From the IMG/VR virus record IMGVR_UViG_3300033146_001012, positions 1 through 24,310 of that record: a DNA stretch of 24,310 nucleotides, one strand, 5' to 3'. Shown piece by piece: positions 2,769 to 9,350 of the stretch; position 1 is the stretch's first letter; the number at the start of each line of letters is the position of its first letter. Below the pieces are notes generated by a model. It did not search any database, had not been told where the DNA came from, and was given only the letters and a program-made list of their open reading frames with translations. The DNA is from a virus. A program made the position numbers and the translations under genes.

Positions 2769-3575
2769 TTAGTAGTTTGATTTAACGTTAACGGAACGGA
2801 GCGTGGAAGCCATGCCTACCATCCAGCCAATGCCCTTCTGTGTTACGCGGTAGTGAACCCGGATCTTCACTTCACCCGTGTTTCTATTACGTACAGGAAC
2901 TTCTTTAGCCACGAAGTACTCCTTGGCTAGGAACGGCGCGTAGGGGACAGGAGCGTCTTTACTGTTACGGAAGATAACCCGTAAGTCCTCCCATATCCGG
3001 TTCATCGTAACGGCTTTCCATGGTAGCCCAGCAAGTGAGCAAGCTTCGTTCACCGTGACACTGTCCTCATTTAGTAGCACGGTCTCAGCGAACTCCACCT
3101 TAGGAGCGTCAGTGGCTTGCTGAGCGAGGAGTAGCTGCTTATCGGCCTGTAGCTGTAGTTTGTCTGCTTCCACCCGCTCAAGCTCTAAAACAGCCGTCTT
3201 CAGCATGTCCAACGTACTCAAGGGCTTTACCCGGGTCTGTAGTGCTTTCTCGCACTCGATGAAGTAACGTCTCACACGCTTACCCTTATCAGAGCGCTGA
3301 AGCATAGAGATGGATTTGGCGCTGTCCAAAGTGAGCGTGTAATCCTTGCGACGACGGCCGCCATTACTTTCACGCAAAAATGCGCTAAAGTCTAATCCGT
3401 CTTCTAAACCTGCCGTTTCGATGTAGCGTACGATCCAATCATGGAATGGAGTCTTCACATCAAGGGCTGTGTGTAATGCGCGAGCGTCCACAAACTGTCT
3501 CCCGTCTGTGCCGGTGCTAATTGTAATGTCTAATGTTGCCTCTGCCGTAGCAGTGAGCTGGTTTTGCGTATTCAT
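2769..3575 (-). CDS. Antirepressor, AntA/AntB N-terminal domain plus KilA-C-like C-terminal domain
   Basis: This 268-residue protein is built like P1-type antirepressors. Residues about 17-110 form an AntA/AntB domain: DGRQFVDARALHTAL, then PFHDWIVRYI, then DYTLTLDSAKSISML and RRYFIECEKAL. A helical linker follows (about 115-150). The C-terminal part (about 160-265) resembles the KilA-C/phage antirepressor domain: VTVNEACSLAGL, WKAVTMNRIW, and RVTQKGIGWM. Such proteins usually bind and inactivate a phage repressor or act as DNA-binding regulators. No obvious repressor is encoded in the window, so its target is unknown. It is the third gene of the leftward operon. Confidence 0.88.
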   Translation of the reverse strand: MNTQNQLTATAEATLDITISTGTDGRQFVDARALHTALDVKTPFHDWIVRYIETAGLEDGLDFSAFLRESNGGRRRKDYTLTLDSAKSISMLQRSDKGKRVRRYFIECEKALQTRVKPLSTLDMLKTAVLELERVEADKLQLQADKQLLLAQQATDAPKVEFAETVLLNEDSVTVNEACSLAGLPWKAVTMNRIWEDLRVIFRNSKDAPVPYAPFLAKEYFVAKEVPVRNRNTGEVKIRVHYRVTQKGIGWMVGMASTLRSVNVKSNY

Positions 3576-4810: not shown

Positions 4811-4924
4811 AGGGCAGGTATACCTACCCTAATCGAAAACGAACCTACCCTACCTGCCTTACTTTTTTACCGGGTAAATGGGATTAGGGCAGGTAGGGGA
4901 GGTAGGTAGTCTGTACCTGCCCTA
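4811..4924. repeat. GGGCAGGTA boxes in direct and inverted copies
   Basis: AGGGCAGGTA occurs at 4811-4820 and 4886-4895, and its complement at 4851-4858 (partial, TACCTGCC) and 4914-4923. TAGGGCAGGTA (4885-4895) and TACCTGCCCTA (4914-4924) form a perfect 11-bp hairpin. CCTACCC words lie between them. No ORF of credible composition is present here. It looks like a protein-binding or origin array. Confidence 0.6.
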
Positions 4925-4953
4925 TTTAAACCCTTATAGAATAAGGGCGAAAT

Positions 4954-5104
4954 GGGGTAGGTTGGGTAGGGTAGGGTGTTGAGAGTGTAACCAAGTAAAA
5001 GGGGGATATGGGGGATATCGGGATATATGGGTGTAGGTGATATCCCCCTTATCCCCATATCCCCCTTTTCTTGTGGTGTTGTGTTTCTTACCTACCCTAC
5101 CCAA
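4954..5104. repeat. Nested inverted repeats with two G-quadruplex motifs
   Basis: TTGGGTAGGGTAGG (4962-4975) is perfectly complementary to CCTACCCTACCCAA (5091-5104). Inside it AAAAGGGGGATATGGGG (4997-5013) is perfectly complementary to CCCCATATCCCCCTTTT (5053-5069), and GGGATATC (5012-5019) to GATATCCC (5039-5046). The strand also holds two canonical four-run G motifs, 4954-4976 and 5001-5031. The element could fold as a cruciform or as quadruplexes and is a strong candidate for a replication-related structure. Confidence 0.7.
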
Positions 5105-5326
5105 CGAACACCTGTTTACATTGACACGTTGAGCTATTATCCCGGTGTGAGAATAAATCAATAATCCTACCACACTTACATCCGGGTAGTAGGATGATCG
5201 ACTCGGTAAGGGTGTGAAAACCTCAGAGGTAATTCCATTTCTGACCCCCAAAAAACAACAACCACTACCCCCATTTTCGACCCCCATAGGTTTTGTTTCA
5301 TTTACTACTATAACATTTCTACCCCC

Positions 5327-5458
5327 CACTAGCGTAACATTTAGCGTAGAACCCGGTGTAACGTATATGGCATAAGGGCTGTAGCTGTTACGCTAGTGTG
5401 CTGTAGTAGCGTAACACCTACCGTAACGCCCTAAAACACGTGACGTAGCGTAACACCT
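5327..5458. repeat. Iteron-like TAGCGTAACA repeats, origin candidate
   Basis: CACTAGCGTAACA (5327-5339) has a perfect 13-bp inverted copy at 5386-5398. Further copies of TAGCGTAACA lie at 5407-5416 and 5446-5455, a shortened one (TAGCGTAGA) at 5342-5350, and one more in the second 83-bp repeat at 5749-5758. Such clusters of about 10 bases next to a helicase gene resemble initiator-binding iterons. Confidence 0.55.
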
Positions 5459-5504
5459 CGAAGCACATCAATTATCCCGGCATAATTACATCCCGGAGGT
5501 ACGA
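5422..5504 (+). repeat. 83-bp direct repeat, copy 1
   Basis: Bases 5422-5504 match 5725-5807 with one difference (C5427 against T5730). The unit contains a TAGCGTAACA iteron, an AATTAT/ATAATT inverted repeat around CCCGGC, and TCCCGGAGGTACGA. It lies 36 bases upstream of the -35 of the first promoter. Confidence 0.95.
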
Positions 5505-5540
5505 TTGTGTGTCCCTCTGAAAATAACACACATTGAATAG

Positions 5541-5568
5541 TTGACTCTACCTGCTAATGAGGTATAAT
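5541..5568 (+). promoter_or_regulatory. Sigma70-like promoter P1 (small RNA promoter)
   Basis: TTGACT (5541-5546), 16-base spacer, TATAAT (5563-5568). It is preceded by CTGAAAATAACACACATTGA, closely similar to the sequence before the promoter at 5856. Transcription should start near 5575 and end at the terminator at 5721. Confidence 0.88.
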
Positions 5569-5574
5569 ACAGTC

Positions 5575-5721
5575 GTTGCGAGGGAAACCTCACACAGCCT
5601 ATTGGTCACAGGTTACGGTACGAAACTGCAAAACACTTTCTTTTCATAATTGAGTAAGAAGCCCGCTAGCACAGTTTCGTAAAGAGTGACCACTCAGAAA
5701 TGCTAGCGGGTTTCTTTTTTT
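5575..5721 (+). ncRNA. Predicted ~147-nt phage small RNA with pseudoknot-like fold
   Basis: A strong promoter and a strong terminator bracket a stretch with no ORF. Three paired segments are visible: TGGTCAC (5603-5609) with GTGACCA (5686-5692), TACGAAACTG (5619-5628) with CAGTTTCGTA (5672-5681), and the terminator stem AAGCCCGCTAGCA (5659-5671) with TGCTAGCGGGTTT (5701-5713). The first two are nested; the third crosses them, because its left arm lies in their loop and its right arm lies beyond them. The RNA is therefore either a pseudoknot or a switch between an early fold and the terminator. No known RNA family is recognised. It may regulate replication or the neighbouring helicase leader. 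Confidence 0.72.
5659..5721 (+). terminator. Rho-independent terminator of the small RNA
   Basis: A 13-bp stem (5659-5671 with 5701-5713, one G-U pair) encloses a 29-base loop, followed by C and seven T (5715-5721). The loop carries the 3' arms of the two upstream helices of the small RNA, so termination and the alternative fold may influence each other. Confidence 0.85.
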
Positions 5722-5724
5722 CGG

Positions 5725-5807
5725 CGTAATGCCCTAAAACACGTGACGTAGCGTAACACCTCGAAGCACATCAATTATCCCGGCATAATTACATCCCGGA
5801 GGTACGA
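5725..5807 (+). repeat. 83-bp direct repeat, copy 2
   Basis: This is the second copy of the 5422-5504 element, offset by 303 bases, with one mismatch. It starts right after the small RNA terminator and lies 48 bases upstream of the -35 of the helicase promoter. Confidence 0.95.
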
Positions 5808-5855
5808 CTATGAGTAGGTGGTTCATCCCGCCTGAAAATAATACACGTTAAATAG

Positions 5856-5883
5856 TTGACTCGTCTCGTTGAATGGGTATAAT
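5856..5883 (+). promoter_or_regulatory. Sigma70-like promoter P2 for the helicase operon
   Basis: TTGACT (5856-5861), 16-base spacer, TATAAT (5878-5883), preceded by CTGAAAATAATACACGTTAA as at P1. Transcription should start near 5890, leaving a leader of about 176 bases before the helicase start. Confidence 0.88.
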
Positions 5884-5889
5884 GCTGCT

Positions 5890-6065
5890 CAGTAAGGCGC
5901 TTCACAGTGTTGTCCTATTACTAAATCTTTCAGCTTTTTGCATAACGCACTCCTTCACGCCCACTGTGACAACGTTTATTACGTTGGGGTTTGAAGGGGT
6001 GTTTTGCGTTCACACGTAATGAGAGTAGGTAACGACGCCACCTTGACGGCGTCACAATCACGATT
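5890..6065 (+). promoter_or_regulatory. Structured 5' leader of the helicase gene
   Basis: The leader can form a long arm in which AACGCA (5944-5949) pairs with TGCGTT (6005-6010) and CTCCTTCA (5950-5957) with TGAAGGGG (5992-5999), capped by CAACG (5970-5974) with CGTTG (5982-5986). A competing fold pairs CACAGTG (5903-5909) with CACTGTG (5962-5968) or GTTGTC (5909-5914) with GACAAC (5968-5973). A last hairpin, GACGCC (6034-6039) with GGCGTC (6048-6053), ends 12 bases before the start codon, which lacks a Shine-Dalgarno. This suggests RNA-based control of helicase expression. Confidence 0.55.
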
Positions 6066-8453
6066 ATGCAAACATATTACACAAACGACGGGTCTATTAC
6101 CTTGTCACACGCAAGTAAGGAGCTGTTCGATACAGCCGTAGCCACCACAGACGTTAAACTGTTCATGCTACCCGGGGACGACGTTACGTTGTCGTCATCA
6201 TGGAGGGATATTGCTACACTAGACGTACCATCTACCGGTGCGACCCCATGGACATACGGTACGCCGATGGAGAAGGGTACGCACAAGCCATTAGGTAAGT
6301 TCAACGAGAAGGACAAGAAGAAGAAGAAGCTAGAGCTCGTAGCTCACTTTCTACGCCGTATTAAGGTGTCAGCGACATCGGCTTACACGAGCGAGTTCCT
6401 CAAGCGTTACACTATACCAGCAGAGGCAGGTGTTGAGGAGATCATAAAGAAGCCACCTCTTCAGGCTTTGGTGGACAACGATTACTACTTGATGCCCATA
6501 CCGTCAATGTTCCGTGACCCGGAGTTGTTCGAGATGTTTATCAACGTAGAACAAGGGTGCGCCGCTATACACGAGCGTGAGATTGCTACAGGAGAGCTCA
6601 CGCATTACTGTGAGTTGGACATATACAGAGCCTACCACGACACGGACGCTGACGGTTTAGATGCTGTAGAGGCTTTCAAGAAGCTTGAGCAGGACTACCC
6701 TGTTAACAACGTGTATGACGTAGACGCAGAGTCAGACCCGCTTACGGACCACCCTCACCAGATCGCACCTAAAGAGATTTACCACAACAAAGGCACTTAC
6801 TACATGCGCATGAAAGACAACCCACACTTCATGTCACTGTCATACGGTCGTGCTGTTGACCAACTATTGATTGACAACCACGATGGTACATCACGCGGAG
6901 GCTTCCCTTCAGTTGTCGCTCAAATACTTGCTCACGCCGACCGTAACGGAAACGCCAACGGCAAAGAGATTAAGACTATCGATGCGCTGGCAGGTCAGCC
7001 CGCCGGGTTACTTGGGTGTAACATACTTGTGCGGAATGCATACGCGCTACCGTTCGAGGAGCCAACCACAGCTACATGCCCGGACACACTCGCACTACTC
7101 AAGCAGTTGTTCGGACACAAGCAACTGGACTTATTCATACTCTGGCTACAACGCGCCCGTATAGCTCTACGGACATGCGAGTACTCACAACGCCACGCTC
7201 TCGTACTCGCAGGGGCACCTGGGGCCGGTAAGACACTTGTAGGTTCAACAATGATCCCGGCACTACTAGGAAGCGCAGGTGACGCTAATAGCTACATCAA
7301 GGGGATAACACAGTTCACCGACTCGTTACACAGCGCTGAGGTGCTTGTAATCGATGATAAGAGTAATGGTAAGACAGGTCATGACCGCGCCCTGTTTGCC
7401 GATGGTATCAAGGACGAGGTGGCGTCAACACACATTAAGCGTCACGAAGCAAAAGGTGTAGGCGCGTTCGTAGCACCCGTGATACGGTCGCTCGTCATAC
7501 TAATGAACGACGATGAGTCATCACTACGTGGCTTCCCGTTACTAGGAGAAGGCGACAGTGATAGCATCGCAGACAAGTTGCACATGTTACTTGTTGAGAA
7601 GACCGAGCTACCTACAGGTTCGTTTATAGACACAAATGCTTACATCGCTGACATGATGACACGTGAGATGCACGCCTTCGCCAGCTACATTGACACGTAT
7701 ACGTCAGAGACAGCCTGCAACAAGCGTTTCGGAACAGAAGCGTACCACCACCCAGAGTTGTTACGTAAGCTAAACGTACAGAGTCCGGAGCGCGTTATAA
7801 GAGAGTTCGTCAACGAGACGTTCTTCACAAACTCACTACCATGCGTGGGAGGAATACAGCAAGCTATCACGACGGCTAAGTCATGGACAGGCACAGCCAA
7901 GGAGTTCGGAGCAATGCTCAAGCAACACCTATCCGATTACCCGGGACAGAGCGTGCGTAAGATGATTTCAGGACGTATTGAGTTCGGTGACCTAGCCCTA
8001 CTGTCCAGCAAGATACTTCGTAGTATTGAGCAACTTGACGACAACGAAGGTTCCTACACACAACGCAAGACTAATGGACGCCTTGTATGGACGATAACCG
8101 AGCAATTAGACACAGCAGACGACGTACAACCAGAACAACCAGAACCACAACAACACAATGAAAACACAAGCCATACCACAGCACCGGAGACAAGCAAGAC
8201 AGCAGACACGACTACAGAAAGCACAAGCATTAGCCCGCAGGATGCCTGTAAACACGCCGTGGAAGGAAATAGCGCACCACTTGACCATCCACGGGTACAA
8301 GGACATTGTAGCCCTACTACAGGCGCACCAGAGCAAACAACTATAACGCCCGAACACTACAAGCCTGTAACGTACGACACCCCCGGCAAGAAACACTTCA
8401 TGCCGCCTTGCCAGGACATTAAAGCCAAACGCATAGACCACGCATCATCATGA
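6066..8453 (+). CDS. Phage replicative helicase, SF3/primase-helicase type
   Basis: The 795-residue protein probably unwinds or initiates replication at the adjacent origin. The P-loop GAPGAGKT is at residues 383-390, the Walker B strand VLVIDD at 426-431, and a motif resembling SF3 motif C with an Asn, VILMNDDESS, at about 477-486. This matches phage primase-helicase proteins of the DUF5906/SF3 kind. Residues 1-370 have no CHC2 zinc finger or obvious primase motif, though a DNA-binding or divergent primase domain is possible. After residue ~680 the tail is rich in Gln, Thr, Pro and Ser and looks disordered; part of it overlaps another reading frame of better quality (8158-8346). The start has no Shine-Dalgarno and follows a structured leader. 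Confidence 0.88.
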   Translation: MQTYYTNDGSITLSHASKELFDTAVATTDVKLFMLPGDDVTLSSSWRDIATLDVPSTGATPWTYGTPMEKGTHKPLGKFNEKDKKKKKLELVAHFLRRIKVSATSAYTSEFLKRYTIPAEAGVEEIIKKPPLQALVDNDYYLMPIPSMFRDPELFEMFINVEQGCAAIHEREIATGELTHYCELDIYRAYHDTDADGLDAVEAFKKLEQDYPVNNVYDVDAESDPLTDHPHQIAPKEIYHNKGTYYMRMKDNPHFMSLSYGRAVDQLLIDNHDGTSRGGFPSVVAQILAHADRNGNANGKEIKTIDALAGQPAGLLGCNILVRNAYALPFEEPTTATCPDTLALLKQLFGHKQLDLFILWLQRARIALRTCEYSQRHALVLAGAPGAGKTLVGSTMIPALLGSAGDANSYIKGITQFTDSLHSAEVLVIDDKSNGKTGHDRALFADGIKDEVASTHIKRHEAKGVGAFVAPVIRSLVILMNDDESSLRGFPLLGEGDSDSIADKLHMLLVEKTELPTGSFIDTNAYIADMMTREMHAFASYIDTYTSETACNKRFGTEAYHHPELLRKLNVQSPERVIREFVNETFFTNSLPCVGGIQQAITTAKSWTGTAKEFGAMLKQHLSDYPGQSVRKMISGRIEFGDLALLSSKILRSIEQLDDNEGSYTQRKTNGRLVWTITEQLDTADDVQPEQPEPQQHNENTSHTTAPETSKTADTTTESTSISPQDACKHAVEGNSAPLDHPRVQGHCSPTTGAPEQTTITPEHYKPVTYDTPGKKHFMPPCQDIKAKRIDHASS
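8158..8346 (+). CDS. Possible overprinted small protein inside the helicase tail, 62 aa
   Basis: This ORF lies wholly within the helicase gene in the +1 frame. Its product starts MKTQAIPQHRRQARQQ, continues with a basic helix, and ends with a compact segment (about residues 33-60) containing NTPWKEIAHHLTIHGYKDI, which reads like a helix-turn-helix-type domain. In the same bases the helicase frame gives a low-complexity chain. The codons in this frame (aac, tac, aag, gac, gta, cta, cag, cac) are those common elsewhere in the phage. The start context (ACAATGAAAACA) resembles other starts here. It may be a genuine overlapping gene or a trace of a frame change; no direct proof is visible. Confidence 0.5.
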   Translation: MKTQAIPQHRRQARQQTRLQKAQALARRMPVNTPWKEIAHHLTIHGYKDIVALLQAHQSKQL

Positions 8454-8968: not shown

Positions 8969-8996
8969 TTGACAACCCGAAAAGGTATGGCATAAT
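8969..8996 (+). promoter_or_regulatory. Sigma70-like promoter with an operator-like word in its spacer
   Basis: TTGACA (8969-8974), 16-base spacer, CATAAT (8991-8996). The spacer begins with ACCCGAAAAGGTAT, the same 14 bases that abut the -35 of the leftward promoter at 4456-4483. A protein bound here would block RNA polymerase. The start point is expected near 9003, on the first ATG of the next gene. Confidence 0.82.
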
Positions 8997-9002
8997 ACAG
9001 GC

Positions 9003-9350
9003 ATGTTGAATCCAACATATAACGCCATGACAACCATATCACCTAAACTAGCCAACGAGCAGTACCACGCCATCGACATATTATTGACAGCCTTCAGCGA
9101 TATAGCTGACACAGACACGTCCAAGGAAGAGCAAGCAATACTAGAAGGGCAACGCCTGATTAGCACACATACGTCTGAAGCAGACTACGCAGCCACAGAG
9201 GAAGCAATAGAGTGTGCTGTATTCGAGCTCTGCAGGGTAGCCGAGAAAGCATCAGCAGCCATCACAGCCGTGGAGGACAGCCTACGTAAGGCAAGCACAT
9301 CGTTCTACCCGGTGGCAGCGAGGGAGCGCAGCCGCATTAAGCAAAACTAA
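9003..9350 (+). CDS. Unknown acidic helical protein, 115 aa
   Basis: The product is mostly alpha-helical, acidic, without membrane spans, and I recognise no family. ATG 9003 coincides with the predicted transcription start, so translation from it would be leaderless; ATG 9027 (MTTISPK, 107 aa) leaves a 24-base leader and fits the ATGAC context common in this phage. It is the first gene of a group driven by the 8969-8996 promoter, followed by the HNH gene after 16 bases. Its strong own promoter and possible operator suggest an early regulatory or host-interaction role, which is inference only. Confidence 0.68.
   Translation: MLNPTYNAMTTISPKLANEQYHAIDILLTAFSDIADTDTSKEEQAILEGQRLISTHTSEADYAATEEAIECAVFELCRVAEKASAAITAVEDSLRKASTSFYPVAARERSRIKQN

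Follow-up and report, generated by a model that had tools for sequence, protein, structure and literature searches.

A candidate phage small RNA framed by its own promoter and terminator

The plus-strand segment at 5575–5721 is best read, and likely, as a stand-alone phage small RNA (sRNA) of 147 nt. The explanation that best accounts for its features is an sRNA gene whose transcript would fold into an H-type pseudoknot locked by its own terminator and would act in trans, a joint proposition to which we give slightly less than an even chance. The unit is a non-coding stretch framed by its own promoter and an intrinsic terminator. Specifically, promoter P1 (TTGACT–16 nt–TATAAT, 5541–5568, plus strand) matches 11 of the 12 sigma-70 consensus positions, and a stricter promoter search recovers just four promoters in the whole window (the complete stretch of 24,310 nucleotides analysed here), P1 and the downstream promoter P2 among them. 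The predicted RNA start lies 7 nt past the −10 element, and the end is set by the T7 tract (5715–5721, plus strand) of the terminator, which has a 16-bp stem. A search of 5575–5721 for a small ORF found no ribosome-binding site and short frames only, in agreement with the initial annotation, which had proposed an undescribed phage small RNA. Transcription of the sRNA is what we infer from this promoter–terminator sequence.

The source is a virus record from IMG/VR (IMGVR_UViG_3300033146_001012, positions 1 to 24,310), and the window contains tailed-phage genes encoding a terminase, a portal, an S49 protease, an endolysin and an AntA/KilAC antirepressor, the last on the minus strand at 2769–3575, near the sRNA. 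Sequence comparison marks the phage as an orphan. Among named phages the closest portal, that of Verrucomicrobia phage P8625, has at best 25% identity, and the best portal match among IMG/VR contigs (L006) reaches 31% identity. Downstream of the sRNA, the first gene of the P2 operon (6066–8453, plus strand) encodes a 795-aa orphan P-loop protein with the motif GAPGAGKT, probably a replication helicase or NTPase; its sole family match is to RNA_helicase PF00910 (E 0.002, below the cut-off). At the sensitivity used, no relative of this protein was found in phages, plasmids, IMG/VR or GTDB genomes, and a tblastn search of phages and plasmids gave no match. Scans with the P-loop protein, the terminase and the portal returned distant relatives only, none of which carries the P-loop protein or the sRNA.

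Nucleotide searches for relatives of the sRNA were likewise negative. A blastn search of the sRNA region against phages, plasmids and E. coli genomes returned no homologue, and exact patterns for the terminator/H2 junction, the operator element, the H2 inverted repeat and the 5′ hairpin had no hits each in IMG/VR. In GTDB genomes the operator pattern occurred twice, about the chance expectation and without phage or flanking similarity. No homologous sequence was found for the sRNA in these collections, and the proposed pseudoknot shape is derived from a single sequence.

Across the whole window, a Shine-Dalgarno-like motif precedes just 2 of 28 gene starts, yet the promoters are of the TTGACA/TATAAT type, a combination that narrows the range of host kinds. 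A separate promoter, TTGACA–16–CATAAT at 8969–9003, ends 6 nt ahead of the ATG at 9003, which suggests a leaderless mRNA for the gene starting there.

Crossing helices within the sRNA

The transcript would begin with a 5′ hairpin, GAGG-GAAA-CCUC (5580–5591, plus strand), closed by a GNRA tetraloop and present in every predicted fold with a probability of about 1.0. Further downstream, the outer helix H1 pairs the 5′ arm TGGTCAC (5603–5609) with the 3′ arm GTGACCA (5686–5692) through seven Watson-Crick base pairs, while an alternative outer register, H1′, uses GGTTAC (5611–5616) and positions 5686–5691 of the same 3′ arm and is preferred by the folding model. The inner helix H2 joins TACGAAACTG (5619–5628) to CAGTTTCGTA (5672–5681) in ten Watson-Crick base pairs. 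Its 3′ arm directly abuts the left arm of the terminator stem, with no nucleotide between 5671 and 5672. The left terminator arm, AAGAAGCCCGCTAGCA (5656–5671), pairs with the right arm, TGCTAGCGGGTTTCTT (5701–5716), and the 27-nt A/U-rich loop L1 (5629–5655) between H2 and the terminator would be single-stranded in the pseudoknot model; all these elements lie on the plus strand. H1 and H2 are mutually nested and both cross the terminator stem, enclosing its left arm and leaving its right arm outside. This is the arrangement of 7- and 10-bp helices given in the initial annotation, whose 13-bp terminator stem is also present in its place but was undercounted, being a stem of 16 bp that includes one G-U pair (G-T in the DNA).

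The pairing pattern departs strongly from chance. When the terminator arms were kept fixed and the flanking and loop segments were shuffled with dinucleotides preserved, none of 5000 trials attained the nested Watson-Crick sum of 17, which bears out the earlier statement that three such pairings are unlikely to arise by chance; a single 10-bp helix appeared in 0.28% of these 5000 shuffles. Moreover, a window scan for hairpins with a stem of at least 10, a loop of 15–60 and at least 9 nt of that loop complementary to upstream sequence identified the sRNA as the only plus-strand locus in the 24-kb window, against an average of 0.0 in shuffled genomes. The whole RNA has a minimum free energy of −42.8 kcal/mol (z −3.3), a value as low as which occurred in none of 200 shuffles. 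A random origin of the sRNA sequence is very unlikely.

Pseudoknot and nested folds

The folding model gives different answers before and after the right terminator arm is included. Before this arm emerges, H2 forms with a probability of 0.94, and the outer helix is H1′ (0.87–0.95) rather than H1 (0.05–0.12). At full length, the terminator wins in the best pseudoknot-free fold, and H1 and H2 open (probability about 0); a pseudoknot-free model cannot hold H2 and the terminator simultaneously. Pseudoknot energies were estimated roughly by hand, using two published types of penalty. On this rough scale, H2 and the terminator alone give −40 to −43 kcal/mol, close to the −42.8 kcal/mol of the nested fold, and adding an outer helix gives a clearly lower −49 to −54 kcal/mol.

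Geometrically, H2 and the terminator are suited to an H-type pseudoknot in the model, with stems in crossing order, a junction of 0 nt and loops of 27 and 19 nt, of which the 27-nt loop L1 is ample to span the 16-bp terminator stem. Once an outer helix forms, a linker of 8–9 nt must span the whole first stem, so that in the pseudoknot the outer helix may be sterically strained and have to bend or open. Together, the modelled energies and geometry give the coexistence of H2 and the terminator roughly an even chance. The pseudoknot of the initial annotation is favoured by the crossing helices beyond chance and by the zero-nucleotide junction, and its rough energies of −40 to −54 kcal/mol lie on either side of the nested −42.8 kcal/mol.

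The same calculations allow an ordinary terminated transcript with a nested final RNA, whose one relevant structure is the extended terminator hairpin (16 bp plus UUUC/GAAA and GAGU/ACUC), H1 and H2 being remnants or chance pairings. The nested minimum of −42.8 kcal/mol needs no crossing, and the terminator does take over in the model, but chance pairing is hard to reconcile with nested perfect helices of 10 and 7 bp that none of the 5000 shuffles reproduced, and we regard this reading as distinctly unlikely.

A duplicated control region around the sRNA

The sRNA begins just past P1 and fills the space that separates a control region from its near-identical second copy. Copy 1 (5422–5568, plus strand) lies upstream of P1 and includes it, and consists of repeats of 91 bp and 52 bp. 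Copy 2 (5725–5883, plus strand) starts 4 nt past the sRNA end and ends in promoter P2 (5856–5883), from which transcription would run into the gene at 6066. The 91-bp repeat (5422–5512 and 5725–5815) is 96% identical between the copies; for the 52-bp repeat (5517–5568 and 5832–5883) the figure is 77%. Because P1 and the sequence upstream of it duplicate in tandem the promoter and control region of the P2 operon, co-regulation with this rightward operon is expected, and the sRNA is probably an early phage sRNA co-regulated with it. The position of the sRNA between the copies suggests a simple route to co-regulated sRNAs, namely duplication of a promoter and placement of an RNA behind the first copy.

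Repeated elements surround the sRNA. An operator-like element is present in three plus-strand copies, at 5164–5186 (partial), 5474–5496 and 5777–5799. In addition, the iteron-like TAGCGTAACA occurs in five exact copies, at 5330, 5386 (minus strand), 5407, 5446 and 5749 (span 5330–5758), exclusively in the intergenic control region; these repeats are possible, putative sites of a replication origin or of initiator binding. With the antirepressor operon running leftward on one side and the P2 operon rightward on the other, this region looks like a control region and possibly a replication origin. Farther left, at 4840–5112, GGGTAGG/CCTACCC and GGGGGATAT motifs abound in a dense block of long inverted repeats, which includes 30-nt arms at 4997–5026/5040–5069 and adjoins the leftward promoter; this block could be an origin or packaging feature.

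Such surroundings raise the question of whether the inverted repeats of the sRNA act as DNA, as half-sites for an initiator or repressor in a replication origin or operator region together with the TAGCGTAACA repeats. The five exact TAGCGTAACA copies, the three operator-like elements and the several long inverted repeats at 4840–5112 are compatible with this idea. However, the half-sites of H1 and H2 are found nowhere else in the window, 5575–5721 itself contains no repeat or operator element save one iteron match with two mismatches, and the promoter–terminator frame is better suited to a transcript. A role as DNA sites is accordingly quite improbable.

Proposed folding pathway and trans action

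In the preferred explanation, a trans-acting sRNA with a terminator-locked pseudoknot, the RNA would be made at the same time as the proteins of the P2 operon. As modelled, the 5′ hairpin would form first during transcription, followed by H2 together with an outer helix (H1′ or H1). The right terminator arm would then emerge and pair with its left partner, presented in the loop of H2, a pairing that would both stop transcription and lock an H-type pseudoknot composed of a 10-bp stem, a zero-nucleotide junction and a 16-bp stem. What results would be a stable and compact molecule with the 27-nt A/U-rich loop exposed. Through this loop, by RNA pairing or protein binding, the sRNA may act in trans and tune early phage development, with the leader of the downstream P2 operon as a possible target.

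A fuller version makes the terminator stem the second stem of the pseudoknot, so that stopping and maturation are one folding event, and adds to this production from the duplicated operon promoter, by which the sRNA would report on the replication operon and act back on it via the leader. Taken as a whole, we place it clearly on the unlikely side. If transcribed and folded as modelled, the unit would be an undescribed sRNA, encoded by an orphan phage, and would show in compact form an intrinsic terminator as part of a pseudoknot; if true, this would be informative about terminator folding on the polymerase and about what makes phage sRNAs stable.

The P2 leader as a possible partner

The P2 transcript is predicted to begin with a structured leader (5890–6065, plus strand; MFE z −4.1). 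Within it, TTTGCATAA (5937–5945) is a 9-nt perfect complement of the start-codon region at 6064–6072 (P 0.007), with a low predicted pairing probability of 0.04–0.12, and the leader may be a translational control element. The leader also has crossing helices of its own, 5902–5909/5962–5969 inside the hairpin 5947–5957/5992–6002. Divergence of the sRNA and the P2 leader from a common leader sequence was rejected, the alignment score being no better than that of shuffles.

A specific form of the best explanation makes the sRNA a trans antisense regulator, in which the loop segment 5627–5645, largely L1, would pair with the leader at about 5991–6008 and alter translation of the first operon gene. 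The predicted duplex, ten plus seven pairs, has an energy of −18.0 kcal/mol (P 0.04 against a shuffled loop; the site was picked post hoc), and a 9-nt perfect match has a P of 0.08; as modelled, the duplex would break the leader hairpin 5947–5957/5992–6002. Against these figures stand the marginal P values for a site chosen after looking, the burial of the target in a stable hairpin, and a rank of third genome-wide on the plus strand, where two other sites score better. We consider this specific form improbable. Other pairing targets were screened as well. In the rest of the window the longest perfect complement of the sRNA is 11 nt, and pairing to gene start regions is at chance level, on which grounds antisense action on phage genes was rejected. 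Seed targeting of Shine-Dalgarno sites was also discarded, there being almost none in this phage (the 2 of 28 starts above).

Alternatively, the locus may work like lambda 6S RNA or IsrK, as a leader or attenuation unit in which the P1 RNA is usually terminated and conditional read-through continues into copy 2 and the operon. Early formation of H2 would close the left terminator arm in its loop and slow the terminator, the crossing helices would tune read-through, and the short and read-through forms might interact. The P1 terminator and the P2 operon do share a strand, the one immediately preceding the other; in the folding model H2 gives way to the terminator only when the right arm has emerged; and the strongly structured P2 leader carries a complement of its gene's start codon. 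A terminated sRNA accompanied by a read-through mRNA has a precedent in IsrK of Gifsy-1 (PMC4825925). However, the near-identical P2 right behind makes read-through partly redundant, and no antiterminator protein or site was identified. Nor does the sequence force a choice between helices: H1, H1′ and H2 share no nucleotide with 5656–5671/5701–5716, and because they have no base in common with the terminator there is no classical terminator/antiterminator pair. The attenuator suggested in the initial annotation is thus unlikely in its classical form, and the broader reading, with conditional read-through, is unlikely too, though it deserves more weight than any other alternative considered here.

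Comparison with known RNA families and phage regulators

An Rfam search with the sRNA gave no match at the gathering threshold, consistent with its original description as an undescribed RNA. Under a permissive search, what matched was the terminator part; the highest-ranking family, RybB (RF00110; E 0.028, 20.9 bits), fell far short of its gathering score, 40, and membership was rejected. The likeness to RybB is confined to the terminator arm (GCCCGC...GCGGGUUU plus the U tract), whereas the crossing helices have no counterpart in RybB. In the wider region, sub-threshold families were eukaryotic microRNA and similar models lying on the long inverted repeats, and were discarded. A 6S-type decoy that binds RNA polymerase, also put forward in the initial annotation, gains from the prediction of a small structured RNA in a phage, but even the permissive search gave no 6S hit and the fold is different, with no long bulged hairpin joining the 5′ and 3′ ends and with its own terminator crossing the helices; such a decoy is extremely improbable. 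The modelled sRNA resembles H-type pseudoknots in general in its two crossing stems, its long loops and a junction of zero nucleotides that would suit coaxial stacking. It differs from them in that one stem doubles as an intrinsic terminator and that strain may arise where the outer helix extends the other stem.

Lambda 6S RNA is a short transcript from a strong phage promoter that ends at an intrinsic terminator upstream of phage genes. The sRNA described here shares its short promoter-to-intrinsic-terminator layout and its place upstream of phage genes, but the locus yielded neither a Q-type antiterminator nor a pausing signal, and we know of no counterpart in lambda 6S RNA of the crossing helices or the duplicated control region.

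More broadly, it is well established that phages encode sRNAs transcribed from promoters of their own, lambda 6S RNA and PreS are listed as Hfq-dependent lambda sRNAs of unexplored function, and OOP and sar are phage antisense RNAs controlling development (review PMC12197685). Like OOP and sar, the present sRNA is a small phage RNA in the control region of replication or antirepressor genes, with an AntA/KilAC gene nearby. C4 RNA, a further phage antisense RNA controlling development, invites the same comparison. Unlike these RNAs, the sRNA runs in the same direction as the operon and is antisense to no gene, and an antisense RNA of the C4/sar/OOP type, for which extended complementarity to ant or another phage mRNA is expected, was rejected on the 11-nt longest complement in the window.

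Among known arrangements, the one most like this locus is that of IsrK in the Gifsy-1 prophage, where an sRNA that ends at a terminator precedes a phage operon and also has a read-through isoform and pairs in trans (PMC4825925). The two differ in that the downstream operon here is served by a duplicated promoter of its own, that no sequence similarity turned up (no Rfam match), and that read-through, trans activation and the anrP/antQ genes belong to IsrK. A possible interaction between the sRNA and the downstream leader would be one likeness. The plainer shared ground is a structured locus in which an sRNA with its own promoter and terminator is placed directly upstream of a phage operon.
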